Assembly (NCBI GenBank): GCA_023487205.1
Contig: JAMDBT010000030.1
Span: forward strand, 1-39,616
Source of the DNA: Thermoplasmatota archaeon
GTDB taxonomy: Archaea; Thermoplasmatota; Thermoplasmata; Thermoplasmatales; Thermoplasmataceae
Length of the DNA: 39,616 nt
Reading direction: 5' to 3'
Shown: positions 1 to 21,398 of the stretch, piece after piece
Layout: every line of letters begins with the position of its first letter
Numbering within the stretch: position 1 is the stretch's first letter
The notes under the pieces: model-generated
Databases searched by the model: none
What the model was told of the DNA's origin: nothing
The model's input: only the letters and a program-made list of their open reading frames with translations
Made by a program: the position numbers and the translations under genes

Positions 1-834
1 GAGTACATCTTCATGTTTCAATCCACGCACCCGTGAAGGGTGCGACAAGCTCGTAGACTTCCTCCCCATTCTCGACCATGTTTCAATCCACGCACCCGTG
101 AAGGGTGCGACCTGCGGCTGCTCCCTTCCCTTCTTCGGAGAGCGTGTTTCAATCCACGCACCCGTGAAGGGTGCGACCATTTGGTCTGTTGCTTCTCCAT
201 CCTGATATAAATGTTTCAATCCACGCACCCGTGAAGGGTGCGACTTCCGCCCGTATTCCCAGCAAGACCCACTTGACAGGTTTCAATCCACGCACCCGTG
301 AAGGGTGCGACCCTCCAGCGAATCGATTTCGAGGAAAAGCATGGCGTTTCAATCCACGCACCCGTGAAGGGTGCGACGTCTTGGTACTTGACGAGAGCCA
401 GAAGCTTAAGGTTTCAATCCACGCACCCGTGAAGGGTGCGACCTATGTACAGTAGGAGATGAGACACCAGCGATGGTTTCAATCCACGCACCCGTGAAGG
501 GTGCGACAACTGACACCTGTTCAGATCCGGATACGATGTTGTTTCAATCCACGCACCCGTGAAGGGTGCGACCTGCCGATCTCGCCGCGAACAACCTGTC
601 CATAGTGTTTCAATCCACGCACCCGTGAAGGGTGCGACGATTTTGTGCAGTTTACAGTTTATGGAATGGAAGTTTCAATCCACGCACCCGTGAAGGGTGC
701 GACTCGTTCTTGCGGTAATGGTGCTGAGCACTATCAGTTTCAATCCACGCACCCGTGAAGGGTGCGACTTTTAATATATCAAGCAGTAAACTTGAAGTAT
801 TAGTTTCAATCCACGCACCCGTGAAGGGTGCGAC
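1..834 (-). CRISPR. Type I-C CRISPR array, 13 repeats in view, truncated by the left window edge
   Basis: Thirteen identical 32-base repeats start at 15, 80, 146, 213, 280, 346, 411, 476, 541, 607, 672, 737 and 803. The 12 complete spacers are 33-35 bases; bases 1-14 are part of a further spacer. On the minus strand each repeat begins GTCGCACCC and ends TGGATTGAAAC. Inside it CGCACCC and GGGTGCG form a 7-bp stem around a 5-base loop. This is the type I-C repeat class cut by Cas5c to leave an 11-base 5' handle. Transcription should run leftward from the leader next to cas2, so the newest spacer is 769-802. No repeat differs from the others, so the distal end is not in the window. Short open frames inside the array only reflect the repeat. 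Confidence 0.98.
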
Positions 835-1005
835 CGCATATTCCAAATATAGCGAAAATAAGCGCACTTTATTATTATTTTTCGCGATTGCATACTATCA
901 TACTCTGCTAACTATATTTATGATTAATTATACAATTCTCGCAAGTCGCTCAGCACTACGTCCGCCGATCTATCCGATTTCGCGTGGTCACTTGGGGTTC
1001 GCCAC
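835..1005 (-). promoter_or_regulatory. CRISPR leader
   Basis: This 171-base stretch lies between the last repeat and the cas2 stop codon. It is A+T rich near the array (835-925). By position it must hold the array promoter and the signals for spacer integration. No conserved leader motif can be named from sequence alone. Confidence 0.8.
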
Positions 1006-1296
1006 CTAATATAATATGACTCCCTCGGGATCGTACCCTTGTTTTGCACCATAGTGTTCAATTCTGTTTTTCCAGTTTTTTCCAAGAAAATAGTAGCGTA
1101 AACTGTCAGTTTCAGGGTCTACTATGCTCTCAAGGCGATGTCTAAGCTCTGTAAATTGGTAAGGCTCCAATAGACATTCGAATACAGAATTTTGGACGCG
1201 TTGACCTAGGTCCACACATTCTTTTGCGATCTGCCGCAGACGTTTCGCGCCTGCAGAGCTTGAGGTATTAACATCATAAGTTATCAGAACCATCAT
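1006..1296 (-). CDS. cas2: CRISPR-associated endonuclease Cas2 (type I-C)
   Basis: The 96-residue product has the Cas2 ferredoxin-like fold signature: it opens MMVLITYDVNT, with the conserved Asp after the first strand, followed by RLRQIAKECVDLGQRVQNSVFEC. Cas2 dimers bridge two Cas1 dimers in the spacer-integration complex. The length is normal for the family. It is the last gene of the cas operon, 14 bases after cas1. A Shine-Dalgarno-like GAGGTC (about 1303-1309) precedes two adjacent ATG codons (1296 and 1293), so translation is probably independent of cas1. The leader and array follow directly. Identification is firm from sequence and context. Confidence 0.96.
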   Translation of the reverse strand: MMVLITYDVNTSSSAGAKRLRQIAKECVDLGQRVQNSVFECLLEPYQFTELRHRLESIVDPETDSLRYYFLGKNWKNRIEHYGAKQGYDPEGVILY

Positions 1297-1310
1297 CTCT
1301 CAAGACCTCA

Positions 1311-2342
1311 CTATTTCCAAAGAAACGGTGGATAGTCATCCAAGTCTCCCCTAATATTCCTTGCAAGAAGCATTGACTGAACATAAGGAATGAGGCCCAC
1401 CTGTATTTTCTCCTCTAGAAAAGTGTGAACGATTTCCTCCCTTTTCCTGTTCTGCCACGAGATTAGTACTTCCTTTCTTGTCTCGTCATTCATCAGAACA
1501 GCCCCATTTTCGCGTTTGACAAACCCGTTTTCTGAGACCTGTTTTCTGTTGATAAGGGACAATACCATTCTGTCAGCTAGATACGGCCTAAGTTCTTCCA
1601 TCACGTCAAGTGCGAGGCTCTTTCTTCCCGGTCTATCAGTATGCAGATAACCAACCTGGGGATCGAGGCCCACGGTTTCAAGTGCTGAGATGCATTCATG
1701 AGCCAGAAGTGTGTAAACGAACGAAAGAAGGGCATTTACATAATCTGTTGGTGGTCTCTTTATCCGTTCGCCGAATGTAAAATGTTCCTTTTGATTCATT
1801 ACCAGGCTGTCGAATTTGGAAAAATAGGCGTTAGCAGCCTCTCCCTCGATTCCCCTTACTGTATCAACCGAAGTGGCATTTTCGACCCTTCCGATCATGT
1901 CTTTCATGCGGTCTATGGTATTGCCGATACCATCGTCCGGAATTACATCGCCATGGTCTCTGATCACCCTTTGCAGGACTCTTCTAGAATTATGTATTTT
2001 TCCTTCAACGAATCGCTTAGCAAGCCTTAGTTTCTCGTGTTCCTCGTCGGCCCATCTGTACTGTTTTCTTCTAAGAAGAACGTTTCCTGAAACCTCGCCT
2101 GATACCCTAGCCAGAAACTTGCCGTGCTCGGTCAGAAAACTCAATTCGACACCTCTCTCGCTGCAAAGGTGCATGGCAGATGGGCTTGCCCCTATGTATC
2201 CAAAGCAGACGATACCTTCCAGATTATGAATAGGTACTCTGAAACGTATTTCGTCCTTGACCTTAACAAGAATGTTTTCTCCTTCTCGTGCGAGATACGA
2301 TTCCGGAGTCGTGACATAAAGGGTGTTGAGAAGCTTCCTCAC
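1311..2342 (-). CDS. cas1: CRISPR-associated integrase Cas1 (type I-C)
   Basis: The 343-residue product starts MRKLLNTLYVTTPESYL, typical of type I-C Cas1. It carries the metal-binding acidic/His set of the integrase: Glu in GIEGEAANAYF, His in VGYLHTDRPGRKS and the acidic residue of LALDVMEELRP. With Cas2 it inserts new spacers at the leader end of the array. The start is GTG and overlaps the cas4 stop by 4 bases (GTGA), which indicates translational coupling. The C-terminus ends about 14 bases before cas2. The length is normal and no key residue appears to be missing. The whole cas cluster is A+T richer than the ribosomal genes nearby. Confidence 0.97.
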   Translation of the reverse strand: MRKLLNTLYVTTPESYLAREGENILVKVKDEIRFRVPIHNLEGIVCFGYIGASPSAMHLCSERGVELSFLTEHGKFLARVSGEVSGNVLLRRKQYRWADEEHEKLRLAKRFVEGKIHNSRRVLQRVIRDHGDVIPDDGIGNTIDRMKDMIGRVENATSVDTVRGIEGEAANAYFSKFDSLVMNQKEHFTFGERIKRPPTDYVNALLSFVYTLLAHECISALETVGLDPQVGYLHTDRPGRKSLALDVMEELRPYLADRMVLSLINRKQVSENGFVKRENGAVLMNDETRKEVLISWQNRKREEIVHTFLEEKIQVGLIPYVQSMLLARNIRGDLDDYPPFLWK

Positions 2343-3001
2343 TCTAAATCCTTATCCTCATGTGTTAACAGTTTAGCTAGATACTTTCCAACAGCTCCAC
2401 TTGATGCGTTCCAATCGGGTTGGCAGATTTCGTACAGTGAGCACCGTAAACAGTGTTTTTCCTTCTTGGGAGCTGGCATGAATCCGCGACTGGCCATCCA
2501 ATGCATCTTAGTGGACAGGGTTTCAACGCGATCTCTGAGCTTACTGTCAAAAATTACTGTCTCTCTTCTGCGAGTCTCATTATAGTACAGGTAGCCTTCA
2601 TTCATGGTTATATTCAACATTTCTTCCAGGGCAATAGCTTGGGCACAAAGCTGGACTGCATCCCTATCATCAGGTTTAGGTCTCCCTCTCTTGTATTCGA
2701 CCGGCCATACTTTCCACCTTCCGGCTCTTCCCTCAAGGGAGATTGACTCCGTCCCCAGCAGATTGTCATCCCTTATGTATTCTATTACATCGGCTACTCC
2801 TTGCAACCCCAACTTCATTGATATTATTGGGACACTCCTGGTGGTACGAGTCTCCCCCCTAGTCTCATTTTCAAATGGGTTATCTGCGCGCTCGTGGACG
2901 TGCTTTCCCTCGACCGTGAGCACGTTTTCCTCCCACCGTTGCTCAATATGTATTAGGGCCCACTGCCTCTCACAGAAGGCCATATGCTGGATCCCCGACA
3001 A
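2339..3001 (-). CDS. cas4: CRISPR-associated exonuclease Cas4 (type I-C); true N-terminus probably upstream
   Basis: RecB-type PD-(D/E)XK nuclease with a 4Fe-4S cluster, used to trim and orient prespacers. From the TTG at 3001 the product is 220 residues. Visible features are the first cluster Cys in AFCERQWALIHIEQ, the nuclease VEYKRGRPK motif, and three C-terminal Cys in HCLRCSLYEICQPDW. The family usually begins about a dozen residues earlier. Here the same frame stays open for 15 codons back to the cas7 stop (3047) and encodes YSEDEFLLLSGIQH, which fits the family N-terminus. No ATG, GTG or other TTG lies in that stretch. Either TTG 3001 is used and the product is slightly short, or a start was lost by a small indel near the out-of-frame ATG at 3029-3031. 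Confidence 0.93.
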   Translation of the reverse strand: MSGIQHMAFCERQWALIHIEQRWEENVLTVEGKHVHERADNPFENETRGETRTTRSVPIISMKLGLQGVADVIEYIRDDNLLGTESISLEGRAGRWKVWPVEYKRGRPKPDDRDAVQLCAQAIALEEMLNITMNEGYLYYNETRRRETVIFDSKLRDRVETLSTKMHWMASRGFMPAPKKEKHCLRCSLYEICQPDWNASSGAVGKYLAKLLTHEDKDLE

Positions 3002-3046
3002 AAGGAGGAATTCATCCTCTGAATACGCATGCGTTGTGAAACCCCT

Positions 3047-3961
3047 CTAACGTCCGCTAATGATCTCAGGCTTCAGGTCTGGGAACTCCTTAAGGTGAAT
3101 ATCATAGTCTTCAATGTTGGTTGCCTCAGTTAACCCTTCCTTTAGTGATATCTGCAATGAGTGGTGAACATCTGCAGACGAGTGTTGTCCATTCTTTGAA
3201 TTATGCCTCCACCAATAAACCCGGTAGACCTCCATGCTTCCTTCTGGTCTAGCAGAAGATGCGTCATTTTCAAATAGCCCTATCAAAGCCCCTTTGATCG
3301 CCTCTGCATCCTCGTCTGTAAATCCAGTCTTACTGGCCAACTGTGAGTTAATGCTACCGTAGAACACATAAACACCATAATCAACTCGATGCTTCATCCC
3401 CATGGTATCTGAAGACTTCTTCTTCCCATCTCCTTCACCGCTGACGCTCTTTGTGATCTGAATGCTTGAAATACTGATTGGATTTACGCTAAAGGCAGGA
3501 TGGATTGAAACGGGTCCTCGAATTCCAATCGAAACGGATTCGTTGCTACCCTCGTTCCTTTCTTCACTTTCGCCCACAGATTCAGTGCCTTTCTTTTTGC
3601 TTCGACCTTTATTCTGAGAACCCTTGTATGCAAATACCTGGCCGAATGCGCGTACATCAAGCCATTTCTTGCAGGCTTCCTCGCGAAATCTCTTTTCATC
3701 CCTAAGATAATCCTTTAATTCACCTTCAGCTCGTGCACGGAGACTCCGATAATCATCGATTCTATCATCATCTGGTTGAACAAATATTGGTTTTCCTGCC
3801 TCCATTAGTCGATTTCTTATCTTGCGTTTGATACTAACGTCTGAAAGTTCACCGTAACCTTCGTAATTGACACGAGGTCTATTTCCATTTAGTGGGTCTC
3901 CATTGGGATTCGCATTCCTCACGCTAACTATCACAGCAAAATCAATCTTGTGTTCCAACAT
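3047..3961 (-). CDS. cas7: Cascade backbone protein Cas7c/Csd2 (type I-C)
   Basis: The 304-residue product starts [23 protein letters not shown], followed by LPR/RPRVNYEGYG-type and SIKRKIRNRL motifs, the hallmark of Csd2. It forms the helical backbone that holds crRNA in the I-C surveillance complex. Other family blocks seen are DVRAFGQVFAYKG, GIRGPVSIHPAFSV, QITKSVSGE, SSDTMGMKHRVDYGVYVFYGS and NDASSARPEGSMEV. A low-complexity Lys/Glu/Ser stretch (about residues 118-143) is inserted before GIRGPVS. The ATG at 3961 overlaps the cas8c end by 20 bases and is preceded by AGGTGA at about 3968-3974. Confidence 0.96.
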   Translation of the reverse strand: MLEHKIDFAVIVSVRNANPNGDPLNGNRPRVNYEGYGELSDVSIKRKIRNRLMEAGKPIFVQPDDDRIDDYRSLRARAEGELKDYLRDEKRFREEACKKWLDVRAFGQVFAYKGSQNKGRSKKKGTESVGESEERNEGSNESVSIGIRGPVSIHPAFSVNPISISSIQITKSVSGEGDGKKKSSDTMGMKHRVDYGVYVFYGSINSQLASKTGFTDEDAEAIKGALIGLFENDASSARPEGSMEVYRVYWWRHNSKNGQHSSADVHHSLQISLKEGLTEATNIEDYDIHLKEFPDLKPEIISGR

Positions 3962-4370
3962 TTCCGTTCACCTCATTCTTTTCATCAACATCCAAAATTT
4001 GGCCTTGACTGTTTGTTTTCTGACTAATCCAGAGGGCCTCACGTTGGCAGTAATACCCTAGCAAAAATTCACCGCTCAACTTCTTATCGCTCTTGAAATC
4101 TTCCGCCAGAAATTTTGATCCCACCTCTGTTATTAATTTTTCCCTAGAGGACACCTTTTTCCCTAATCTTGCTTTATAAGGGGCAAGTGCGAGATAGATA
4201 GTTCGCCATGTAGTGAATGGGTGTTCCGCAAATCTGTTCATCAATCTTGCCGCGGTTGTTTGTCGATTTTCATCAGATTCGTTCAGAGCCCAACTTTCAA
4301 TATTATCAGCCAGTGCCAGAAGCCTTCCATACAGATAATCCCTTGATTTCCTATTTTCTTCTAAACTCAT
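3942..4370 (-). CDS. cas11c: Probable internally initiated small subunit Cas11c
   Basis: Type I-C systems are known to make the small Cascade subunit from an internal start in cas8c. Here Met500 of Cas8c (ATG at 4370-4368, minus strand) is followed by [20 protein letters not shown], the block where known I-C small subunits begin. It would give a 142-residue helical protein. The bases just upstream on the minus strand carry AGGGA about 6 bases before the ATG, a plausible ribosome-binding site. The seen parts are the ATG, the purine-rich site and the conserved block; use of the start is inference. Confidence 0.65.
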   Translation of the reverse strand: MSLEENRKSRDYLYGRLLALADNIESWALNESDENRQTTAARLMNRFAEHPFTTWRTIYLALAPYKARLGKKVSSREKLITEVGSKFLAEDFKSDKKLSGEFLLGYYCQREALWISQKTNSQGQILDVDEKNEVNGNVGTQD

Positions 4371-5867
4371 ATTAAATCCCTTACTCCAATAGTACTTTCT
4401 ATAAATCGCGCACGCGATACTGAGCGTTTTCTCCCACATCCTTTTTTCAATTCCAATTCGGTTTGAAGCACGCCGCACACATGACTCCACAATGTCTGCA
4501 GGTAACTTCTCACCATCAATGATGCAGGGAAGCAATCTTTCTAGAGTTGATTTCTGAAGTTTGTCGCTTATGTTTTTCCCGTAGGCCGATTCGGCTATGT
4601 CACTGAGTGCAGGGGTGCCAATATACTTGATAGCAATTTTCTGTTTGTCCCTTGAAATCCACCAAGAACAAGTCTCATACCAATTCTTTATCCTATTCAG
4701 GAAGTCTGACCCAGTCAATTCTCGATAGAATGTTATGGAGATCCTTCCGGGTGTAGCAGAATCAATACCCATAACTACGATGTCTGCAGAATCGCCGAGA
4801 TTGGTGTGGTATCCCCTTAATTTCTGGTTTAATTTATGGGCAAATTCTTCGGAAGTTGTTGCCGGGACCAACGAATCGTTATCTAGGAAGTCAAAAGAAT
4901 CCATTAAAGGATCTGGAACCTTGATCCCTGCAGTCGACCAAGCAACTATAGCCTGATCATTGTGCATGTATCCCTGTTTCCTGATTAGCCAGCGTAGGGC
5001 ATTGTGCGCTTTTTGTGTTACTTCGTAACTAACTCCGCACGCCTGATCCGAGGTCTGAAACCTCCCCCGGAATGTAAATCCAGAGGTATCGTTTGAAGAA
5101 ATTATCTTGGCTTGATCAGCATCATGTCTCAATTTTTTTGGGTGCTGTTCGGCTGCGAAACTCAGGTCTCCTGTAACATAGCAAAGAGTTTTGTGCGTTT
5201 TGGTAGATTCGTAATATTTCGCCCAGCTCTCGAACAATTTTCGATCTGTATGTAACTTTGTCTGAGGATCACCCGGGATTTCCACGCTCCAACGTACAAA
5301 AGCTTCGGCTTGACGTTTATTTGGGGAGACCTTGAAAATCTCAGGAATCGGCTTCTTTTCCCATTGTTCTATGAGTTCTCCATCAGGTCCGGCGACCAAT
5401 ACACCGTAATTTACTAGGTCCTTGATCACAGTGCCTTTCCGAATATAGTCCAATACCCTCACTGCCTTTGGATCCGAATTACCCGACTCGCACCACGCGC
5501 TTAGAAGCTTTTCATATTCTTCATATGGTTCCATTGGATTTTCAGCATAACCTGATGTAACCGTTCCTCCAAACTCACTGAAATCTTTGGCAACATATTG
5601 TAATTTGTCGCTCAGGGGGTGAGGCTTTGGTTTCTTTCCAGATCTCCCTCCTGATTCTTCAGTGCATGGGATGATAGTTTGGGAGTCAGTCTTTGGTAGC
5701 ACCGCGGCACGACTGAAGTCACCGTTGTGATCGATAGTGATCTCAATCTGTGCTTCTTGAGTTGTGTGACCAATTGGCAATAGTATAGCATCACCACTTG
5801 CTGTATCGAATGATGCTGTCGAGTGGCACTGTTCGTAGGTCTCATACAATTTTTGTATCCAACTCAT
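3942..5867 (-). CDS. cas8c: Cascade large subunit Cas8c/Csd1 (type I-C)
   Basis: The 641-residue product opens [14 protein letters not shown], like Csd1 proteins (short N-terminal LY..Y helix, then a beta domain with [16 protein letters not shown]). Cas8c recognises the PAM and recruits Cas3. Later blocks are typical: [42 protein letters not shown] and, near the C-terminus, [16 protein letters not shown]. The ATG start (5867) overlaps the cas5c stop by 4 bases (ATGA), so it is translationally coupled. The C-terminal 142 residues probably also exist as a separate small subunit (see the Cas11c entry). The length is within or slightly above the family range. Identification rests on both sequence blocks and operon position. 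Confidence 0.95.
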
Positions 5868-6589
5868 GAACTATCCCTCCACCCCTCCAAATTGTCCTTG
5901 AGCAGTTCCTCCTCCATTAATCCTACAGAATCAATCTTGCTCGCAACCATTGGCCTTACAAACTTGGTAAATGTACACTCGTCCGGGCGAATGAATCGAA
6001 TAACGCCGTTGTTCATCCTTGGGTGCCAGAATCTGGCGCGAAGTTCGTCAAATCCAATTTCGTCAGGGTAATCGAAACCATGAAACATAAAGTCAAATGA
6101 CAACTCGCCGCATTGATCATAGAACCCAATCCCAGAGCCGAATTGGCAGGGTTCAACGTAGCCCTGACATTCACGCGTCCCAAGAAAAATGTCTCTTCTT
6201 CCACCTCTTTCAATCATTCTCTTCGCAACGAAGTAATGCTTGTTTTCGTTCCGGTCCTGTTCCATATCTGGTCTGTTTCTGTTCCACTCGAAGTGAGCCT
6301 GCACCTGATACTCAACATCTGCCAAATATGTATAAATGCTCAACTCGTGTTTTCCTTCCCCGTAGCTGATAGGCTTTGCACTTCTGGTCTGGGTCTTGAT
6401 AGGTTTCATAACACGCATCTTATCTATCAACCAAATAATGGTTGGTTTCCAATATGCCGACTCCAATATTCCCTTCAAAGCCTGATACGTTGGAATTTGG
6501 TAAGATGACTTTTCTCCCCCTATCTTAGTAAGCGGATCAGTAAACAAGGCATACTTCCCATAAACCCTAAACTCTACCTTGTTTTCCAC
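5864..6589 (-). CDS. cas5c: crRNA-processing endoribonuclease Cas5c/Cas5d (type I-C)
   Basis: The 241-residue RAMP protein opens with [14 protein letters not shown] and continues [20 protein letters not shown]. In type I-C, which lacks Cas6, Cas5c cuts the pre-crRNA at the base of the repeat hairpin and stays on the crRNA 5' handle. Residues Tyr46, Lys117 and His118 fall at the places of the catalytic Tyr/Lys/His triad described for Bacillus halodurans Cas5c. The family block [15 protein letters not shown] is present. The start is GTG with a strong AGGTGA just upstream, and the gene ends in a 4-base overlap with cas8c. No separate cas6 gene is visible in the window, as expected. Confidence 0.95.
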
Positions 6590-6600
6590 CTTTCACCTCA

Positions 6601-9090
6601 CTATGCATTATAAAAGGGCATATCGCTAGTTGGTTCACCACTAAAGCCATGATCTTGATCATAATAAGAGCTTTCGATATAAAAAATCTCGGCTCTGTCT
6701 CGAATTTCATGAATGACTCCCTGCGCCCTCAAATTCTGAAATTCGTAGTCAAAGAGATCTATAGAATACCTCTGAGCGGCCTTTATTAGTCTGTACTCAG
6801 TTTCAAGACTGGGGGCACCGCAAAGCTTCTCAATAATTCCTGCTCCGGCCCTATACGGAACAATTACCCCATGCACATTCGAATCTATGACATTAAATGC
6901 GTTGGAAGCTGTCATAAATGACTGTCTCAGTTGTATATTGGGTGATGAATTATTAATTCTGTTGTATTCCTGAAGCGAAATGGAGTTGGTCGATAAAAGG
7001 TTAAACAGAGTATCTTCCCTATTCACTAGAGAGCCTCTATGAATCTTATAAGGCATCTCATCCTTTTTGTCATAGAAGAAATATGTGTAATATGTTTCAA
7101 TAGCTTTTGGCCCAAGAACATCCTCATCGAATTGTTTCGGGTCTCTCTTAAAATCATTCAACACGCGCTGTGCAATATCCCTGCCTGTCGAAATACTCTT
7201 CAAATTGCTGAGGTTCTCATCTTTGGGATTTATTACAAAGAACCTTCCAAGAGAAGCTCTACTTCCATTGCGATTGCATCTGCCCGCAGCCTGGGCTAAC
7301 GAGTCCAGGCCTGCCAGATATCGTATTACACTTCCGAAATCTATGTCTATTCCTGCTTCAATGAGCTGAGTGCTAACACAAACCACCCGCCCCCCTTCTT
7401 CTAAGCGACTCTTCATACCTCTTAATACTTCCATTCTGTGTTCAGGGCACATGTTTGTGCTTAGATGATAAACTGCGCCATAAGTCTGACTTATTAATTG
7501 CTGAAATAGCCTAAGGGCACCTTTCTTCGTGTTGACTACCACAAGTACGCTTCCAGAGGATTCTAGTTCTTCTTTTACAAGGGCAGCAATTTCTTCTTCT
7601 CGCCATCCACCCGCTTTTCGTTTGTCGAAAAATATCACCCTTCTTAATTCACTGAACAATTGCCCAAGATCTGGAATCATTTCATGTTCGGGGTCAATGT
7701 GAAGGGCTCTTTGAATAGGCTCGATTTTATCAAGCAAGGGCTGAGTCGCCGTGCATAGAACTGCGGTTGAACCACAGTCATCGACAAGAAATTGTACAGC
7801 CACGTTGAAAATTTGAACGCATTTAACAGGAAGGGTTTGCACTTCATCGAAAATTACCACGGAATTCGCAAGGTTGTGCATCCTTCGTGCGTCTCTTGTA
7901 CCGTGACCATAAATAGTATCTAAGAACTTTACCATCGTCGTATAGATTATTGGGGCATCCCAATTTTCCGCTAATAATTTCTGACGAGACGTTTCCTCTT
8001 CAGGAGTTAGGTTTGAATGATGCTCCAGTACAATATTTTCTGGTTTCAGTCCATTTTTATCATTGTTCTCTAATATGTCTATTGCCTTTCCAGCATTCTG
8101 GTCAATTATCGAAGTGTATGGTATAACGTACACAATTCTATCCATCCCATGGATTTGTGCATGTTTCAGTGCAAACCTGAGACTTGAGAGAGTTTTTCCC
8201 CCTCCCGTTGGGACTGACAATTTATAGATGCCTTTAGGCTTAGCAGAAAAATTAAAACAGCTATCGGATACTTTTTGGCGAATCGCGTCGATTCTTTTCT
8301 CTACTTCGGTTTTCCCTGAAGAAAACTCTTCTAGTTTTCTTAAGTATGAATCAAGTCTTTCTATCAGTGCATTCCAATTTTCAAAGCCCTTCAAGTTTCT
8401 TGTGTTGCTTTGTTTTGGAAATTCAAAATCTGCTGTGTTAATCCTATCCGCATCTATCAGACAACTGAAGAGATATCGGGTAAGTAGTCCAACCTTGAAC
8501 CAGTACGTTTCGCGCGAGTCAGTTTTCTTTTTCAATGATCTAACCTTTTGATTTAGGCTTTCTACTACGGTATCACTCGCCAGAATTTCCCAAACGGCGT
8601 GGCCAATTACTTCGCCTAGATTTGCTTCGCATTCTCTTAAGTGCGTTTTTTCTTCAAGTTTATTCATACGCTTTTCAAAAATATCGTTTCCACTGGGATC
8701 GAGACAGTCGATCAATCCTGAATGATGAGATGCAATCACCAGAGACAACAGTTGGGATGACAACAAGGTATCGTTTGATTTACCTTTAAAGAATTCGTGA
8801 ATCATTTGGGCACCAGCGCTAGAGTGATCTATCTTCCCCTTATTGGTCGTCGGATCTACATATTGATCCTCATCTGAATTTATCAATCCAGTTGCTGACC
8901 TTATATATCTGAGGAATTCGTTGCTCGCCTTTCCCAGATCGTGCAGTAATCCAACTATTTTCCCTTGTTGCCCAAGTCCAATCTTAGCAGCGAATTGTTC
9001 GGTTAGTGAAGATGTCTCTAATAGGTGTTGCGAGAGACTTTGTGACTGCCCATCTTCCTCACGAATGTGCGCTATGTATTCTTTGTTCAT
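6601..9090 (-). CDS. cas3: Cas3 HD nuclease-helicase (type I-C)
   Basis: The 829-residue protein has the fused HD nuclease and superfamily 2 helicase layout. HD part: His22, LLHDLGK (His50-Asp51), DHSSAG (His89), SHHSG (122-123) and a late LIDADR (Asp213/Asp215). Helicase part: Walker A VPTGGGKT (about 293-300), the DEVQ box in VIFDEVQTLP (415-418), TATQPLL, and motif VI AQAAGRCNRNG. It is recruited by Cascade and degrades the DNA target processively. It is the first gene of the cas operon; ATG at 9090. All catalytic residues appear intact, so the interference module looks functional. cas5c follows 10 bases downstream. Confidence 0.97.
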   Translation of the reverse strand: MNKEYIAHIREEDGQSQSLSQHLLETSSLTEQFAAKIGLGQQGKIVGLLHDLGKASNEFLRYIRSATGLINSDEDQYVDPTTNKGKIDHSSAGAQMIHEFFKGKSNDTLLSSQLLSLVIASHHSGLIDCLDPSGNDIFEKRMNKLEEKTHLRECEANLGEVIGHAVWEILASDTVVESLNQKVRSLKKKTDSRETYWFKVGLLTRYLFSCLIDADRINTADFEFPKQSNTRNLKGFENWNALIERLDSYLRKLEEFSSGKTEVEKRIDAIRQKVSDSCFNFSAKPKGIYKLSVPTGGGKTLSSLRFALKHAQIHGMDRIVYVIPYTSIIDQNAGKAIDILENNDKNGLKPENIVLEHHSNLTPEEETSRQKLLAENWDAPIIYTTMVKFLDTIYGHGTRDARRMHNLANSVVIFDEVQTLPVKCVQIFNVAVQFLVDDCGSTAVLCTATQPLLDKIEPIQRALHIDPEHEMIPDLGQLFSELRRVIFFDKRKAGGWREEEIAALVKEELESSGSVLVVVNTKKGALRLFQQLISQTYGAVYHLSTNMCPEHRMEVLRGMKSRLEEGGRVVCVSTQLIEAGIDIDFGSVIRYLAGLDSLAQAAGRCNRNGSRASLGRFFVINPKDENLSNLKSISTGRDIAQRVLNDFKRDPKQFDEDVLGPKAIETYYTYFFYDKKDEMPYKIHRGSLVNREDTLFNLLSTNSISLQEYNRINNSSPNIQLRQSFMTASNAFNVIDSNVHGVIVPYRAGAGIIEKLCGAPSLETEYRLIKAAQRYSIDLFDYEFQNLRAQGVIHEIRDRAEIFYIESSYYDQDHGFSGEPTSDMPFYNA

Positions 9091-9170: not shown

Positions 9171-9314
9171 TTGGGGACCTTGTGGACCCTCAGATACGAG
9201 ATAGCAGAGATAAGAAGATACGTAAAGAAACCATCGAAGCTGGGCGAGATTCTCGATGTCGTCCGAAACGGGAAAGCGATGCGATTAAGCTCTAACTCCC
9301 GCTGTTTTGCATAA
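9171..9314 (+). pseudogene. Short unrecognised ORF remnant cut by the transposon 3' end
   Basis: A plus-strand frame opening at TTG 9171 (or TTG 9180) encodes 47 residues, including LRYEIAEIRRYVKKPSKLGE and ILDVVRNGKAMR, then stops at 9312-9314 inside the 3' end of the opposing transposase frame. The charged helical character looks like real coding sequence, such as the N-terminus of a regulator, that was truncated when the insertion element arrived. The family is not recognised. It could equally be chance. Confidence 0.3.
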
Positions 9315-10232
9315 TATGCATCTGGAGCCCCTCAATCAGGACCCTGGATTTCTTGGGTATTTCGGATATCTTCCACTCCTCCCCGATCTTCAGCATGAAG
9401 ACCCTCCCGAGATGATCCAGCACGTCCTGTGGCGAGTATTTCCCCAGGAGGTCTTTGCTCCTCAGGAGACCATATATCCTGTAGTGGATCATCAGTGCGA
9501 TGAAGTTCGCGAACATCCAACCCTGCAGCTGGTGATCGTCCCTCAAGTATGCCCGATCGGCATGAATCGTATTCTTGAACGTGTCGTAGGGTTGCTCTAT
9601 CTCAGACCGGGACTTCAGCATCACGTACACGATTTCGCCTGAGACCTTCAGGTTCGTGATCACCAATATGGTCCCCACGCTCTCCCTTAAGGCTGTGAAT
9701 CGTGCCGGTGATCCGGATCGGGCAAGGAAGTCCTTCTCCTCCTCGGCCTTCAGGAAATCGTTCCTGAAGGTGTACATGGCACGGTTGCCAACGGCATATT
9801 TCCTGTAGAATATGGGATGATCCTGGAACTTGAAGTGCCTCTCCCCTTCAGGGGGATGACATGGAAGATGCCCATGGAATCAAGTGCCGATGTGTTAGAG
9901 GAGGAATAGAACCCCGTATCTGCAACCAGCACCATCCTCTTGGCGCCGGATTCCTCCATGGTGAGTTTCAGGGAAGCCACGCTGTTTACTGCCCCGGGCA
10001 GGATGCGGAAATGTGCCGGCATCTCGTGATCCAGGGAGAAGAGGAAGAGGATCTGCACCTGTGGCAGGTATTCCTCCATGCCGTTGTGTCCCAGGGTTGC
10101 CGATATGATCCCCTCGCTCATGGACAGGACGTGCGTCAGATCGACGGCAAGATAGCGGTAGCTCTCTAAAATAACGGAAAAGAGCAGGGAAAAGATGGAA
10201 GAAAAGAAAGAATTCCAGTGAATCCGCCCCAT
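9292..10232 (-). pseudogene. Broken IS4/IS1634-type DDE transposase
   Basis: Two adjoining minus-strand frames form one decayed transposase. The upstream part (10232-9750) holds YLAVDLTHVLSMSEGIISA, GHNGMEEYLPQVQILFLFSL, FRILPGAVNSVASL and LVADTGFYSSSN, matching the first two catalytic Asp regions of the IS1634 group. The downstream part (to 9292) holds YRKYAVGNRAMYTFRNDFLK, the QLQGWMFANFIALMIHYRIY block and a typical C-terminus. The join requires one extra base in the four-C run at 9843-9846: with it, the text reads through as KGERHFKFQDHPIFY. A stop at 10245-10247 and missing N-terminal domain show 5' truncation. Catalytic activity is not expected. Confidence 0.85.
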
Positions 10233-14566: not shown

Positions 14567-15421
14567 GTGAGGGTCTATCTCGGGAGAGACCTTTCCCGGG
14601 AAGAAGTTGAGAAGAAACGAATTGAGGGGGAGATTGAGCTAAACCAGAAGCTCTCAGAACTCAAGGGAATCAAGGATCCATACAAGGAAACGCTTTCCAG
14701 CGAGGAGATATCTGAGCTCAACAAGCTTCTTCCGCAAGGGAAAATCGAACTTTCTCACATAAGCGACGACAACTGGCTGAAGTTCACCGAAGCCTTCACT
14801 TATGCCACCAATGCCATCGAGGGTTCCACGGTAAACAGGAAAGAAGTCGGGGACATCTTGGAAAAACGAAAGTGGCCCAATAAGCCCAGGGAAGAAATCT
14901 ATGAAACCCTGGGCGTGGAGCAGGCGGTGAAATACCTGAGGAACACGGAGGAACATCTTTCCATAGACCTCATCAGGGAACTGCATAGGCTCGTGTTTAA
15001 GGACTCGAAGCCGTTTGCAGGTAATTTTCGCGAGATAGGTGAAGAAGTCTCGGTGATAGATTACGAGGGAAACGTGATCCACGATGGCGCTCCATCGCGA
15101 TTGGTTTCTAAATTGCTGAACGAACTGGTAGCCTGGTACAACGTGAACAAGGGCACGTACCACCCCCTCATTCTATCCGTCGTGGTGCACAACCAGTTCG
15201 AGAACATTCACCCTTTCGCCGACGGGAACGGAAGGGTCGGAAGGCTGATCCTGATAAATGTCCTGATCAAGCATGGGCTTCCCCCTGTTAACATAGAAAT
15301 GGCCAACCGGTCGGAGTACTATATCGCACTGTACCAGTATGACAATGAGAACGATATCAGGCCGAGTCTTAACCTTCTCCTCAAGGAAATGAGAAAATCT
15401 AAGAAAAGTCTGGATGTATGA
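14567..15421 (+). CDS. Fic-domain protein (probable AMP-transferase), N-terminus probably longer
   Basis: From GTG 14567 the product is 284 residues. The Fic motif HPFADGNGRVGR (about 215-226) is complete, so transfer of AMP from ATP to a protein hydroxyl is expected. TNAIEG (81-86) matches the class II inhibitory (S/T)xxxE(G/N) helix, so the enzyme should be self-inhibited. Upstream of the GTG the same frame is open to a TAG at 14468 and encodes RNGVTYYYLAHSYRK and KVRKVRVYLGRDLS, the usual N-terminal strand-rich segment of archaeal Fic proteins. That segment has no ATG, GTG or TTG; an ACG at 14483 stands where an ATG would be expected. The gene is probably either start-mutated or read from a rare codon. 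Confidence 0.88.
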   Translation: MRVYLGRDLSREEVEKKRIEGEIELNQKLSELKGIKDPYKETLSSEEISELNKLLPQGKIELSHISDDNWLKFTEAFTYATNAIEGSTVNRKEVGDILEKRKWPNKPREEIYETLGVEQAVKYLRNTEEHLSIDLIRELHRLVFKDSKPFAGNFREIGEEVSVIDYEGNVIHDGAPSRLVSKLLNELVAWYNVNKGTYHPLILSVVVHNQFENIHPFADGNGRVGRLILINVLIKHGLPPVNIEMANRSEYYIALYQYDNENDIRPSLNLLLKEMRKSKKSLDV

Positions 15422-16306: not shown

Positions 16307-17611
16307 CTAGAAAGCCCTGGAGACGTTGACCTCGTTAACGGTCACGTACGGCATTGTGCTGGGAAATATCTCTTCCCACCACTTCACGTTCCAGGTTTCC
16401 TTTGAAATGAGGTCTATGTTCGCAAGTACGGACGGTATGGAATCGCTGATCCTGATTCCACCCCACGCCTCCTTGATTTCTCCGTCCTGCACGTAGAATA
16501 CGCCATCCCGCGGAACGGTGGAAAACACACCATTCCTGTCGTCCTGAAACCTTGTGTACCACGCGTTACGGATGTACAGTCCTTCCTTCAGGGAGGCAAG
16601 CATCTCCTGTTCTGACGAATCACCGCCCGCCATCTTCATCTGGAACGGCATAGGAGCTATTATCCCCGCGTTGCCCGTAGTCCTGGTATTGTTCCTGGAT
16701 GCAGTGGAATACGAGTGAAGATAACTTCGCAGTATACCGTTCTCGACGAGATTCTTCGAAAACGTGACCGTTCCCTCATCGTCTACCGGCCTGAATCCCG
16801 ATCCAGAAGCATCGGAAGGATCGTCCAGGATCGTGAGCTTATCGTTGCCGACCTTCTTTCCCATGGATTCAGCAAAACAACTGAACCCTGACTCCACAGA
16901 ATAATACGAGAAGTAGGCAGACGCATAAGAAACGATGTTTCCGATGAGGTATGGTGACATAAGTATCCTGAATTTTCCCTGTTTTCCCTCCTTCCGGTGA
17001 TCAAGCATCATGGCAGTTTCAGCAGCTTGTTCTCCGAGGGATCTCGCGATGGAGTCCATGTCAGATCCGCCAGATCCTGTATGTGTTGCCTCCTGTCCTG
17101 TCATATCTCCCTTGAAAGCCCGGATCAGGAATTCGGTTCCGCCGGTGGAATACTGGACCCTGTTGTGGGTTGTAACGGTGGTCACTTCGGCAAAGTTGTT
17201 GTATATCAGGCCGGCAGATCTATCCGCTCCCTTCCCCGTGGCGGAATCGATCATAATGGATGCGAGTTCCTGGATATCCACGTCGTTCTTCCTTGCACCG
17301 TTTATTGAGGAGTAGTCCTGCTTTTCCGGATTTATTCCCATGAAGGATTCATTGTCCGGAGTGTGATCCAGCAGGAACATCAGCTGATCTATTGAAGAAT
17401 CGAGAATGCCGTAATCCTTGACTATGGTGGACGCCGTCTTTTTTCCCCTGGCCACGAAAACGGAAGTGGAATCCTCCACCCAGTGGTTGTGAATGTCTTT
17501 CGAATTGCCAGAGAAGCGCACCTGGCTGCTGTCTTCTTTGACGTTGGAAACGGCTATGCTGTCAAGGCCAAATTTCTGCAGCCTGTCGAATATGTCGTCA
17601 GCGATACTCAT
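16307..17611 (-). CDS. tldE: TldE/PmbA-family protein
   Basis: About 434 residues of the TldE (PmbA) family, the partner of the metalloprotease TldD. Blocks seen include FVARGKKTASTIVKDY, the SGGSDMDSIARSLGEQAAETA helix region and TRTTGNAG; no HExxxH motif is present, as expected for the non-catalytic subunit. In archaea and bacteria TldD/TldE form a heterodimer that cleaves unfolded peptides in a tunnel. ATG 17611 is chosen because GAGGTG (about 17618-17623) lies 6 bases ahead and overlaps the tldD stop. A GTG at 17620 is an alternative. It is the last gene of the coupled SHMT-like - CBS - tldD - tldE cluster. Confidence 0.93.
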   Translation of the reverse strand: MSIADDIFDRLQKFGLDSIAVSNVKEDSSQVRFSGNSKDIHNHWVEDSTSVFVARGKKTASTIVKDYGILDSSIDQLMFLLDHTPDNESFMGINPEKQDYSSINGARKNDVDIQELASIMIDSATGKGADRSAGLIYNNFAEVTTVTTHNRVQYSTGGTEFLIRAFKGDMTGQEATHTGSGGSDMDSIARSLGEQAAETAMMLDHRKEGKQGKFRILMSPYLIGNIVSYASAYFSYYSVESGFSCFAESMGKKVGNDKLTILDDPSDASGSGFRPVDDEGTVTFSKNLVENGILRSYLHSYSTASRNNTRTTGNAGIIAPMPFQMKMAGGDSSEQEMLASLKEGLYIRNAWYTRFQDDRNGVFSTVPRDGVFYVQDGEIKEAWGGIRISDSIPSVLANIDLISKETWNVKWWEEIFPSTMPYVTVNEVNVSRAF

Positions 17612-17621
17612 TTCCTGCACC

Positions 17622-19004
17622 TCACGCTATCCTTATCCCGCGAAGCCTTACATGCGGCCCGCCAAGCCATACGTCACATCCCTGCTCCGGGTCGCCCTTT
17701 CCGCAGGTTGCAGCATGGAACTGCAGATCGTTGGCAACCGCGTCCACGGAACTGTAGAAATTGATGGTGTTAGTTTCTATGACCGGCCTCCTTAGTACGT
17801 CTGTCACTTTCCCGTTCTCGATCAGGTAAGCTTCCTTCCCCACGTATTTCTCGTTGAACCGGACATCGTCGATGTTCCACTCGGTGAAGGACTTCATGTA
17901 GATTCCGCGCTGTATGCCTTCAAACAGTTCATCCACCTCGAAGTTCCCCGGCTCTATGTAGGTGGTGCTCATGCGTGGAAGCGGCTCCATATCCCAAGAC
18001 GACGATCTACCGCCTCCGTTGGGATCGACGCCAAGAATTGCTGCACTCTCCCTGTTGTGCAGGAATTCCGATGTCATGCCGTTCCTGTACAGGTACCTCT
18101 TCCTGGCCCGGACGCCCTCATCGTCGTACTGGTAGTATCCATAGCTTCCCGGGTAGGTGGGATCATCGATAATGCTGACGGCTTCCGATCCTATCCTGTA
18201 AGGAAACTCTTTGCCAGTCAGGAAGGATTCCCCGGCCAGCGCGCCCTCCCTTCCTATTATACGATCGTACTCGGTGGGATGGCCGCACGATTCATGCGCC
18301 ACAATGCCGGAAACCTCCGGGCCGATCACGAAATCGTAAGTGCCCGGTTCAGGCCTTTTCGCCTGCGATGCCTTCTTAAGGACTGAAATCTCGTTCCTCA
18401 CTATTTCGGGAAGATCGATCTCGTCCAAGTACTCGTAGCCCATGCTTGCGCCGAACTGGCCGGTGGACTGCTCGAATTCTTCTCCCGTCCCGACTCCGAA
18501 CATGTAAAAATACTGGATCCTGCCGGATTCCCAGGAGACATTCGATCCCGACGAATTGGCATATTGTCCCTTCATCTGCTTGTCCAGGAGCTCGTTTATC
18601 CTCATGGGCGCGCCTTCGCTTTCCATGATCCTGTCCATATCCTTCAGGATCTGCAGCTTCTCCTCAAGAGGGAAATCCCGTATGCCCTTTCTCTGGGCGA
18701 TTTTCCAGCTTGCCCTGTCCTCCCTCCCGATGCCTATCTGGTTCTTTCCGGGGAATTTTGATTTCCTGACCGCGACGTCAATTATCGTCTTTGCAGCGTC
18801 CCAGTCAGTGGTGTCAAAGTACGCAGAACTGATGGAGTCGTTCAGCAACCGGACCGCAATCCCGGATTCCCTGTTGTTGTCAATGCCGTCAAACTGCCCG
18901 TTCCGGTACATTGCCCTGGTTGTCTCCCGTTCCATGTAACGGATCTCAAACCACTTTGAATTCTTCCCCGCATACTCGAAAGCTTTGTCGAAAAGCGGAT
19001 TCAT
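17622..19004 (-). CDS. tldD: TldD-family zinc metalloprotease
   Basis: The 460-residue product carries the TldD signature HESCGH (HExxxH, His237-His242) in IVAHESCGHPTEYDR, with a downstream Cys in the GKGDPEQGCDVW segment as the probable third zinc ligand. The N-terminal domain opens with MNPLFDKAFEYAGKNSKW. It is the catalytic subunit that trims unstructured peptides together with TldE. Its ATG overlaps the stop of the CBS gene by 4 bases (ATGA), and tldE follows after 10 bases, so the two subunits are made from one message. Length is normal and the metal site is intact. Confidence 0.95.
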   Translation of the reverse strand: MNPLFDKAFEYAGKNSKWFEIRYMERETTRAMYRNGQFDGIDNNRESGIAVRLLNDSISSAYFDTTDWDAAKTIIDVAVRKSKFPGKNQIGIGREDRASWKIAQRKGIRDFPLEEKLQILKDMDRIMESEGAPMRINELLDKQMKGQYANSSGSNVSWESGRIQYFYMFGVGTGEEFEQSTGQFGASMGYEYLDEIDLPEIVRNEISVLKKASQAKRPEPGTYDFVIGPEVSGIVAHESCGHPTEYDRIIGREGALAGESFLTGKEFPYRIGSEAVSIIDDPTYPGSYGYYQYDDEGVRARKRYLYRNGMTSEFLHNRESAAILGVDPNGGGRSSSWDMEPLPRMSTTYIEPGNFEVDELFEGIQRGIYMKSFTEWNIDDVRFNEKYVGKEAYLIENGKVTDVLRRPVIETNTINFYSSVDAVANDLQFHAATCGKGDPEQGCDVWLGGPHVRLRGIRIA

Positions 19005-20104
19005 TGCACTTTTTTCTCCTTCATCTTCCTGAGCCTGTTTTCGTAAGTCTCGAAAATGTCATACAGGCACTTACCGAAGTTCCAGTCAAAGGAATCCACT
19101 GTCAGGGATATTCCACCGGAAATGAGTCTGGTCCTGACTGAATATTTCGTGGACCCCTCTTCCTTGTACCGGATCACGTGCACGCTGAGTGTCCCGTTGG
19201 AATGCCCGGTAATCTTGGAGAATTTCTTGGCAAATTTCTCCGCATCCCTGTAAGCCATGTCGTAAAGATCCTCGTCGCCGTGATCCAGGCCGCTTATGGT
19301 CATCAGGAGGCCTTCCTGGGACAGGTTCGTGTTAATGATCCCAATCAGATCGGACTGGCTGACAACTCCCACCAGCATTCCCTCCCTGTCGGTAACGGGA
19401 ATTATGTGCAGCGAGTGTTCGGTCATCAAGTCAGCGCACTCCGAAACGGGCGTATCGGTCATCGCATGGACATCATTATCCATGACTGATCCCACCTGCA
19501 CCTTGACGGGTGCGCTTGTGGACTTGTACTGGCCGTAGCTGATCTTGTCCTTCTCGGTGATGGCCTTCTCCATCATGTCGTCCAGCCTGAGGATTCCCGC
19601 CGTGTGGCCCCTGTCGTCTACCACCGGGATCTCATATTCCCTTAGAATCCGGATCTTGTCGTGCGCTATGTCCAGGGCGTCGGTTTCCCTGACCGCAATG
19701 GGATCGGAAGACATCACGTCCATTGCAGTCAGGCCGGTGTCCCGGACTATCTCGTTGTATTTTCTCACTATGTCGGCGGTGCTGATTATGCCTGTAAGTG
19801 ACCCCTTCGCCAGGACAGGGAGCGCGGCTATTCCGGAGGACCTGATCTTGTCTATTACCGCAAGAACGTCATCCTCAGGGGATATGACAGGGGTGCTGGT
19901 AACGTATCCCGAGGCTTTGGAGTTGAACTGGATGCTCCTTCTCCTGATCAGGTCTCTGTAGATCAGCATTCCCTGGTATTTCTTCCCATTCACGATTGGA
20001 ATGGAGTGAACCCTTTTCTCGCCGAATATGGAAAGAGCCTGCGATACCTTCGAATCTGCACTAAGCGTCAACACCTTTTCGGTCATTATGTCCTTTGCTT
20101 TCAT
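19001..20104 (-). CDS. Four-CBS-domain protein with an extra C-terminal domain
   Basis: About 367 residues. Four CBS motifs can be followed: VKAKDIMTEKVLTL-type start (MKAKDIMTEKVLTLSADSKV), GYVTSTPVISPEDDV, TAMDVMSSDPIAVRETDALD and VGSVMDNDVHAMTDTPVSE. CBS pairs usually bind adenine nucleotides and act as energy sensors. The last 100 or so residues (from LLMTISGLDHGDEDLYD) form a separate alpha/beta domain whose strand-helix pattern recalls the ribosome-hibernation (HPF/RaiA-like) fold; that likeness is inference. ATG 20104 is chosen because GGTGA lies 5 bases upstream; TTG 20116 is less likely. It sits 1 base after the SHMT-like gene and overlaps tldD by 4 bases. Confidence 0.85.
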   Translation of the reverse strand: MKAKDIMTEKVLTLSADSKVSQALSIFGEKRVHSIPIVNGKKYQGMLIYRDLIRRRSIQFNSKASGYVTSTPVISPEDDVLAVIDKIRSSGIAALPVLAKGSLTGIISTADIVRKYNEIVRDTGLTAMDVMSSDPIAVRETDALDIAHDKIRILREYEIPVVDDRGHTAGILRLDDMMEKAITEKDKISYGQYKSTSAPVKVQVGSVMDNDVHAMTDTPVSECADLMTEHSLHIIPVTDREGMLVGVVSQSDLIGIINTNLSQEGLLMTISGLDHGDEDLYDMAYRDAEKFAKKFSKITGHSNGTLSVHVIRYKEEGSTKYSVRTRLISGGISLTVDSFDWNFGKCLYDIFETYENRLRKMKEKKVQ

Positions 20105-20105
20105 T

Positions 20106-21281
20106 TCAGTCACCAAACTTCATTGAGAGGCCGGAGACCAGGTCCGAGACCTCCTGAACTACCTTCACTCCCTGGAGAGCGCGATCCATGAGACTTGCGA
20201 CTTTCGACATGTCCGAAACGCCCATTCTGGTAGCCTCAGACAGGCCTATTCTGGAATCCCTGTCCACTATAATCCTGTTGCTTTCCATTCGCTGGGAGAA
20301 TTGCACCGGAGTGATCTTTCTGCTGGAAAAGAATTCGCCGGACAGCAGCACCTGGTGAGAATAGCTGAACCATGGGGGGAACCTCACTTCCCATCCCAGT
20401 TCATAAAGCCCTGACGCGAGGGACTTTGAATTCTTTGCCAGAGCCTTTGCATAGTCTTTCCCGTGCCTCTTCATCTCATCGGCTGCGATGGCAAGTGCAG
20501 CAACGCGGGAAGGATGGTAGTTATCCATAGTGTACCATATGGTATTCCTGTGTATTTCATTGTACAGGTCGCGATCATTGGTGAGGATTATCCCGCCCTG
20601 CGGGCCAAAGAATGACTTATGAGTCGACCCGTAGAGAGCCGCACAGTATTCAAGGGCATCGGGCTGGAATTCACCACCCGCTATCAGGCCCATTACATGG
20701 GATCCGTCGTAAACAATTGGCACGTGCATGTCCGAAGCAATCTGCGAAACGCCCCTGAGATCATATGGTCTCACGAACGCACTCTGACCAAGTACAATCA
20801 GGTCCGGCCGGTTCCTTTCCAATGCAGTGGAAAGGCCTTCAAGGTCTATCGCCTGGTTCTTGTCATCGTAGGGAATCCGGTAGCTCCTGTATCCCAGCAT
20901 ATCTGGCAGGTATGGCTGATCATATCCGGGATATCCGCCGGATTCTGGGCCTATATACAGGAAACTTCCTCCCTTAGGAAGTATCGACAGCAGGACCGTT
21001 TCCGCGGCGATGTGGCCGCCAATGGGCCTGACCTCCGCATATTCAGCATCATACAGGCTGGCAACAATCCTCTGGGCTTCCGAAAGAACCCGATCCGAGA
21101 ATTCCGACCCTCCGTACGAGTTTTCTCCGGAATCAGTAACGTGGGAGTACCTTGCGTACATGTCGTTTCCCATCGCCTGGAGAGCATTATCGCTCAGCCT
21201 GTTCTCTGACGCCTGGAGATTGAGGCAGGACCTCCTGTAGGAAACGTGCTTCCTGAGAATTTCCAGAATTTCAGATGCCAA
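20106..21281 (-). CDS. Serine hydroxymethyltransferase-like PLP enzyme
   Basis: The 391-residue fold-type I PLP enzyme shares the SHMT blocks NLQASENRLSDNAL, GGSEFSDRVLSEAQRI, IVYDGSHVMGLIAGGEFQ (Asp192 pairs with the PLP ring) and GSTHKSFFGPQGG with Lys222 as the Schiff-base lysine. It differs from standard glyA in several positions and is shorter, so it may act on another beta-hydroxy amino acid or use a different C1 carrier. The start is TTG at 21281; no better in-frame start is seen. A TATA-like GGATATGATAG lies about 30 bases upstream. It opens the cluster with the CBS protein, TldD and TldE. Confidence 0.85.
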   Translation of the reverse strand: MASEILEILRKHVSYRRSCLNLQASENRLSDNALQAMGNDMYARYSHVTDSGENSYGGSEFSDRVLSEAQRIVASLYDAEYAEVRPIGGHIAAETVLLSILPKGGSFLYIGPESGGYPGYDQPYLPDMLGYRSYRIPYDDKNQAIDLEGLSTALERNRPDLIVLGQSAFVRPYDLRGVSQIASDMHVPIVYDGSHVMGLIAGGEFQPDALEYCAALYGSTHKSFFGPQGGIILTNDRDLYNEIHRNTIWYTMDNYHPSRVAALAIAADEMKRHGKDYAKALAKNSKSLASGLYELGWEVRFPPWFSYSHQVLLSGEFFSSRKITPVQFSQRMESNRIIVDRDSRIGLSEATRMGVSDMSKVASLMDRALQGVKVVQEVSDLVSGLSMKFGD

Positions 21282-21361
21282 GTGCCCAGCCCTCGTTCGT
21301 CATTGCTATCATATCCAATGTGCCATTCGTGCGTGAAGAGAGCACAATATCCTAGTGTCTA

Positions 21362-21376
21362 AAATGTATATAATGC
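21362..21376 (+). promoter_or_regulatory. Promoter of the DUF99 gene
   Basis: AAATGTATATAATGC contains a near-ideal archaeal TATA box about 30 bases before the GTG start at 21399. A GGGGTGA stretch overlaps the start codon. Confidence 0.55.
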
Positions 21377-21398
21377 TTTCAACATTTTATCCACAGGG

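Follow-up and report, generated by a model that had tools for sequence, protein, structure and literature searches.

A HibA-TldD-TldE gene cluster conserved across Thermoplasmatales is a candidate dormancy-and-salvage operon

In Escherichia coli, the TldD/TldE protease cleaves unfolded regions of specific proteins, such as CcdA and microcin B17, and matures the latter; its genes, tldD and pmbA, lie apart from each other, and neither has a hibernation factor gene nearby. In archaea, HibA was reported in April 2026 as a ribosome hibernation factor in which four CBS domains are joined to an HPF/RaiA domain; it binds archaeal ribosomes at the tRNA sites and inside the mRNA channel, and its loss delays stationary-phase recovery in Thermococcus barophilus (PMC13324472; deposited structure 9SR9). 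A further relevant protein is Ta0811, the second serine hydroxymethyltransferase (SHMT) of Thermoplasma acidophilum, described in the part of PMC9876860 that cites Ma'ruf et al. 2021 as defective in the tetrahydrofolate (THF)-dependent reaction for want of one folate-binding loop. Here we analyze a 39,616-nucleotide (nt) stretch of DNA (hereafter the window; contig JAMDBT010000030.1 of assembly GCA_023487205.1) from a 1.56-Mb genome of the Thermoplasmataceae, in which four consecutive minus-strand open reading frames (ORFs) at 21281-16307 encode an SHMT-like enzyme, a HibA orthologue, TldD and TldE. A 23S rRNA in the window identifies the DNA as archaeal. The order of the last three genes is conserved across much of the Thermoplasmatales, and we propose with moderate confidence that the cluster is a dormancy-and-salvage operon of this order.

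The second gene (19001-20116) encodes a protein with four tandem N-terminal CBS domains (Pfam, approximately residues 5-262, 3.2e-38), whose AlphaFold2 (AF2) model matches four-CBS modules, followed by an HPF/RaiA-like C-terminal domain (approximately residues 268-371). A PDB sequence search returned Pyrococcus abyssi HibA as the top match (9SR9_H, 3.1e-18, residues 6-365 against 5-371), and a profile built from a 24-member alignment matched 9SR9 at 5.9e-53 (residues 5-366 against 4-371). Profiled separately from the CBS part, the C-terminal domain matched mainly HPF, RaiA and protein Y chains, with hits that are singly weak (best E 0.005) and strikingly uniform; the S30AE domain PF02482 was detected in 13 of the 24 orthologues (best 1e-7), the window protein itself scoring 0.049, below the cut-off. 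The predicted structure (predicted local distance difference test, pLDDT, 85) gives this domain an HPF topology, with a strand at residues 269-275, a helix at 282-303, strands at 307-319, 322-333 and 336-344, and a closing helix at 347-370. The linker loop between CBS3 and CBS4 is also present and aligns to the peptidyl transferase center (PTC) loop of P. abyssi HibA, with pLDDT below 50 at residues 193-202. A Foldseek search of the model against the PDB matched the CBS part only, HibA entries not being within the top 50, so that HibA membership rests on the sequence profiles and the model topology. On the strength of the full-length 9SR9 match, the HPF/RaiA-type C-terminal domain and the PTC-like loop, we assign the protein as a HibA orthologue, for which 70S binding, translation inhibition and AMP binding are functions predicted by analogy.

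Compared with the HibA proteins of P. abyssi and T. barophilus (PMC13324472; 9SR9, 9SRA-9SRF, 9T7H), the window protein shares the four CBS domains and the HPF/RaiA domain, collinear over residues 6-365, and has a CBS3-CBS4 linker loop where those proteins have the PTC loop, but it is distant in sequence, and in the alignment with 9SR9_H the two archaeal-specific insertions are each about two residues shorter. Among the top fold matches of its CBS part are Dri and the Methanosarcina SriA-D proteins (9E6Q, 9ZNF, 9ZNG, 9ZNI), which are likewise ribosome-bound archaeal CBS modules but, as described, lack the HPF/RaiA domain. An earlier reading of the window from its letters and translations (the first-pass annotation) had recognized a CBS protein of the adenylate-binding kind that ends in an additional domain, a reading that the four CBS domains and the HibA match bear out, and had missed that this domain is of the HPF/RaiA type and the protein HibA. 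Second HibA copies stand away from the operon in three genomes of the window's family (G010:C1:1633044-1634195, G017:C21:2027-3139 and G031:C72:482-1594).

Family and order counts, taken from gene coordinates, reveal that HibA, TldD and TldE are adjacent in 43 of the 48 Thermoplasmatales genomes with both HibA and TldD/TldE, including 19 of 24 outside the window's family. Within the family, TldD/TldE is present in 24 of the 33 HibA-bearing genomes, where it always follows HibA, and the SHMT-like gene, here assigned as a threonine aldolase, directly precedes hibA in 32 of the 33, the exception being G019; in G021 the aldolase-HibA junction lies at a contig end. The gene order proposed in the first-pass annotation is thus real and not private to this genome, yet the unit is layered: outside the family the aldolase paralogue stands apart while HibA, TldD and TldE are still together, which makes these three the deepest conserved core, preceded by the aldolase gene in a single family. 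At the aldolase-HibA, HibA-TldD and TldD-TldE junctions the median gaps are 4 nt (27 loci), 4 nt (34 loci) and 5 nt (34 loci), respectively, whereas the outer neighbors are not kept (the Endo_dU gene and a 116-residue ORF in 1 of 40 loci, the TetR gene in 0 of 40), and this retention of tight gaps between scrambled flanks indicates that the four-gene order reflects much more than general synteny. Among the family genomes that have HibA but no TldD/TldE, a peroxiredoxin gene directly follows hibA in two loci (L045 and L050).

A second set of 80 loci from named genomes, gathered with the TldD alignment as query and partly overlapping the first through shared genomes, recovered relatives in Thermoplasmatales, Aciduliprofundum/DHVE2, Thermoplasma and Acidiplasma. 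In 47 of the 58 Thermoplasmata loci the gene immediately upstream of TldD is HibA, several of the remainder being contig edges, whereas HibA adjoins TldD in none of the 22 loci from Woesearchaeota, Asgard, Bathyarchaeota, Nitrososphaeria, Methanomethylicota and Pyrodictiaceae. The HibA-linked TldDs form one clade (support 100/99), with one unlinked row nested within it, and the order is kept across at least five families; the linked TldD is, as judged from this phylogeny, vertically inherited. The most parsimonious account has HibA, TldD and TldE brought together a single time, at the base of the order, with the aldolase gene added in the window's family. We rejected a general co-occurrence of HibA with TldD/TldE, as genomes outside the order often carry one without the other and, elsewhere in the phylum, no adjacent HibA-TldD pair is found among the matches listed. 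In one low-completeness genome (L056, G009:C11) the whole operon appears broken into several frames, through either decay or assembly error.

The third gene product, TldD (17622-19004), carries three PmbA_TldD Pfam domains (4.6e-48), matches the E. coli TldD structure (8e-30) and contains an HExxxH motif (HESCGH) at residues 237-242; His237, His242 and Cys434 are invariant in 11 HibA-linked TldDs. It scores 207 bits, below the NCBIfam equivalog cut-off for archaeal TldD of 635 bits. TldE (16307-17620) has the PmbA_TldD C-terminal domain (PF19289, 8.8e-51) and matches PmbA-type structures, without HExxxH. The pair thus resembles E. coli TldD/TldE (PmbA) and Sulfolobus TldD (MEROPS U62) in its PmbA_TldD domains and in having HExxxH and the invariant Cys in TldD and no HExxxH in TldE, and we predict that TldD is the catalytic subunit of a TldD/TldE metalloprotease heterodimer, with the PmbA-like TldE as partner subunit. 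Open frames of about 900 residues at some TldD hits look like neighboring TldD and TldE frames rather than a fusion, as the two are separate ORFs in two of these loci (L042 and L049). In the three Thermoplasma-type loci the gene after TldE, in the same orientation, encodes an M1 aminopeptidase; in most other family genomes this gene is the next conserved neighbor, mostly convergent. In T. acidophilum the enzyme is presumably the tricorn-interacting factor F3, going by its locus number. Several genomes of a sister family, f5, carry a second TldD/TldE pair (L214-L222).

The leading gene (20106-21281) encodes a pyridoxal phosphate (PLP) enzyme of the SHMT fold family (Pfam SHMT, 2.5e-33; AF2 pLDDT 94.9). 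A second, canonical SHMT is encoded elsewhere in the same genome, most Thermoplasmatales carry both types, and a 74-sequence tree separates the short paralogues from canonical SHMT with 100/100 support. The 19 canonical sequences have the folate/pterin loop that precedes the carboxylate-binding Arg, and all 55 short paralogues lack it; in the latter the canonical Glu (E57 in E. coli) is replaced or missing (mostly Leu, His or Met) and the PLP-stacking His (H126) is a Tyr (Tyr117). These changes speak against a canonical SHMT identity. Lys222, Asp192, His195 and the carboxylate-binding Arg344 are invariant in the short paralogues, and the PLP site is intact. In the same tree the window enzyme falls together with the short paralogue from a genome that we take, by its length and gene positions, to be T. 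acidophilum, the family group having 100/95 support; that paralogue lies at 865 kb and the canonical SHMT at the very end of the genome, in line with the numbering of Ta0811 and Ta1509. The window enzyme and that paralogue share the clade, the missing folate loop and the gene context, and are about 42% identical. Ta0811 itself is reported to cleave threonine independently of THF, to be the main glycine source and to be highly expressed. Threonine synthase directly precedes the paralogue in 4 genomes of a sister family, and, with the loss of the folate loop and of two canonical residues and the placement in the Ta0811 clade, this makes a PLP-dependent, THF-independent threonine aldolase the most likely assignment.

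The enzyme is thus related to SHMT, as the first-pass annotation had it, but of the aldolase type, and together with TldD/TldE it upholds the amino-acid and peptide turnover that had been named as the likely theme. The same annotation had also raised a peptide-modification or maturation unit, in which TldD/TldE would mature a small peptide, as it does microcin B17 in E. coli, and the PLP enzyme would modify it. Beyond that precedent nothing speaks for such a role: the active site of the PLP enzyme, with the carboxylate-binding Arg344, is still one for free amino acids, no modification enzyme is conserved at the locus (among ORFs of at least 80 residues, a survey in which a very small precursor gene could be missed) and the identity of the CBS protein as a hibernation factor means that peptide modification is not the primary function of the unit. 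We consider this reading highly improbable.

Within the window, the ORFs, their strand and their spacing agree with the four coupled genes first described at 16307-21281, and the spacing recurs in other genomes. The HibA ORF opens with TTG at 20116, while the start kept in orthologues is the ATG at 20104, 1 nt beyond the stop of the SHMT-like gene; HibA and TldD meet in a 4-nt ATGA overlap, and TldD and TldE are separated by 1 nt. The intergenic region at 21282-21398, common to the divergent Endo_dU gene, holds a putative promoter in which a TATA-like element, TTATATA, lies some 90 nt ahead of the SHMT-like gene; a TATA-box scan of upstream regions across genomes gave no discrimination. From spacing and conservation, we infer that the whole cluster is transcribed as one mRNA.

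We propose that HibA, through a module of the adenylate-binding CBS type, would bind idle ribosomes at their tRNA sites and in the mRNA channel, protecting them at low energy, that the co-transcribed TldD/TldE heterodimer would degrade short or unfolded peptides accumulating once translation stops and that, in the window's family, the leading threonine aldolase would turn the threonine of that pool into glycine and acetaldehyde. In this model the operon would be induced under starvation and peptide turnover would be functionally linked to hibernation, by extension from relatives in which others have demonstrated the function of HibA (Thermococcales) and the loss of the THF-dependent reaction (Ta0811). 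Data from Thermococcales agree with the model, as a TldE homologue of Thermococcus kodakarensis rises 3.6-fold across stationary phase (PMC4870337) and hibA loss delays recovery in T. barophilus, though the genes appear unlinked there: the T. kodakarensis identifiers for hibA (TK1186) and the tldE homologue (YP_182912) imply that they lie far apart.

Several observations weigh against this model. Nine family genomes (G004, G008, G011, G016, G019, G022, G026, G027 and G032) keep HibA without any TldD/TldE, which indicates that HibA does not need the protease, and in eight of them the aldolase gene still adjoins HibA; in other parts of the phylum, either of HibA and TldD/TldE is often present on its own. 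In genus g27 of the sister family f5, the HibA-linked TldD is missing and the TldD present groups with Asgard sequences. The Ta0811 mRNA is reportedly abundant in growing cells, which would oppose a purely stress-induced operon, and the literature yielded neither expression nor proteomic or interaction data on it. Finally, P. abyssi HibA prefers AMP (Kd 12 uM) and its ribosome binding is unchanged by AMP (PMC13324472), so that nucleotide control is hypothetical.

The nine genomes and the separate occurrences elsewhere in the phylum would equally suit a housekeeping cluster, in which genes under one promoter are expressed at a constant level for the general turnover of proteins and amino acids and hibernation is not specifically tied to TldD/TldE, and so would a first gene that may provide most of the family's glycine rather than act under stress. 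Such a cluster is nonetheless hard to square with an order that persists over at least five families, its genes a few nucleotides apart, while the flanks changed, and with a HibA-TldD-TldE core that stays intact where the aldolase gene stands apart, and we regard it as possible but rather unlikely. The order-wide pairing of hibA with tldD/tldE would also fit a direct action of the protease on the hibernation machinery, by which TldD/TldE would trim or degrade HibA, at a flexible loop or tail, or the unfinished, stalled nascent peptides of idle ribosomes, thereby controlling entry into or exit from hibernation. In the model, HibA residues 193-202 appear unstructured and the C-terminal end is of low confidence, which might offer such substrates given that the E. 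coli enzyme is known to cleave unfolded regions of CcdA and microcin B17, but HibA persists in the nine genomes without TldD/TldE, and we hold this direct action to be improbable; were it true, TldD/TldE would be a dedicated partner of hibernation in the Thermoplasmatales, which would give the archaeal protease a definite function in the cell and hibernation a switch based on proteolysis.

Each of the four proteins belongs to a described family, and their conserved coupling is, as far as we could find, unreported. The main text of the HibA paper mentions neither TldD nor operons or genomic context (PMC13324472), and a literature search, incomplete in coverage, found nothing relevant that links TldD to hibernation in archaea. 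The order-wide link of TldD/TldE to HibA offers a testable lead to what the protease does in archaea, with archaeal ribosome dormancy predicted to be coupled to peptide and amino-acid salvage; the cluster also supplies a context for the second, folate-independent SHMT of these genomes.

Elsewhere in the window, a gene for a Fic-domain protein (PF02661) lies near the operon on the opposite strand, at 14567-15421. The region at 14-9090 is a Type I-C CRISPR-Cas locus with cas3, cas5c, cas8c, cas7c, cas4 and cas1c, a type uncommon in archaea, and its array, at 14-860, has at least 13 repeats. Between the CRISPR-Cas genes and a ribosomal protein L11-L1-L10-L12 cluster, two fragments of an IS1634-family transposase at 9292-10232 look like a decayed insertion.

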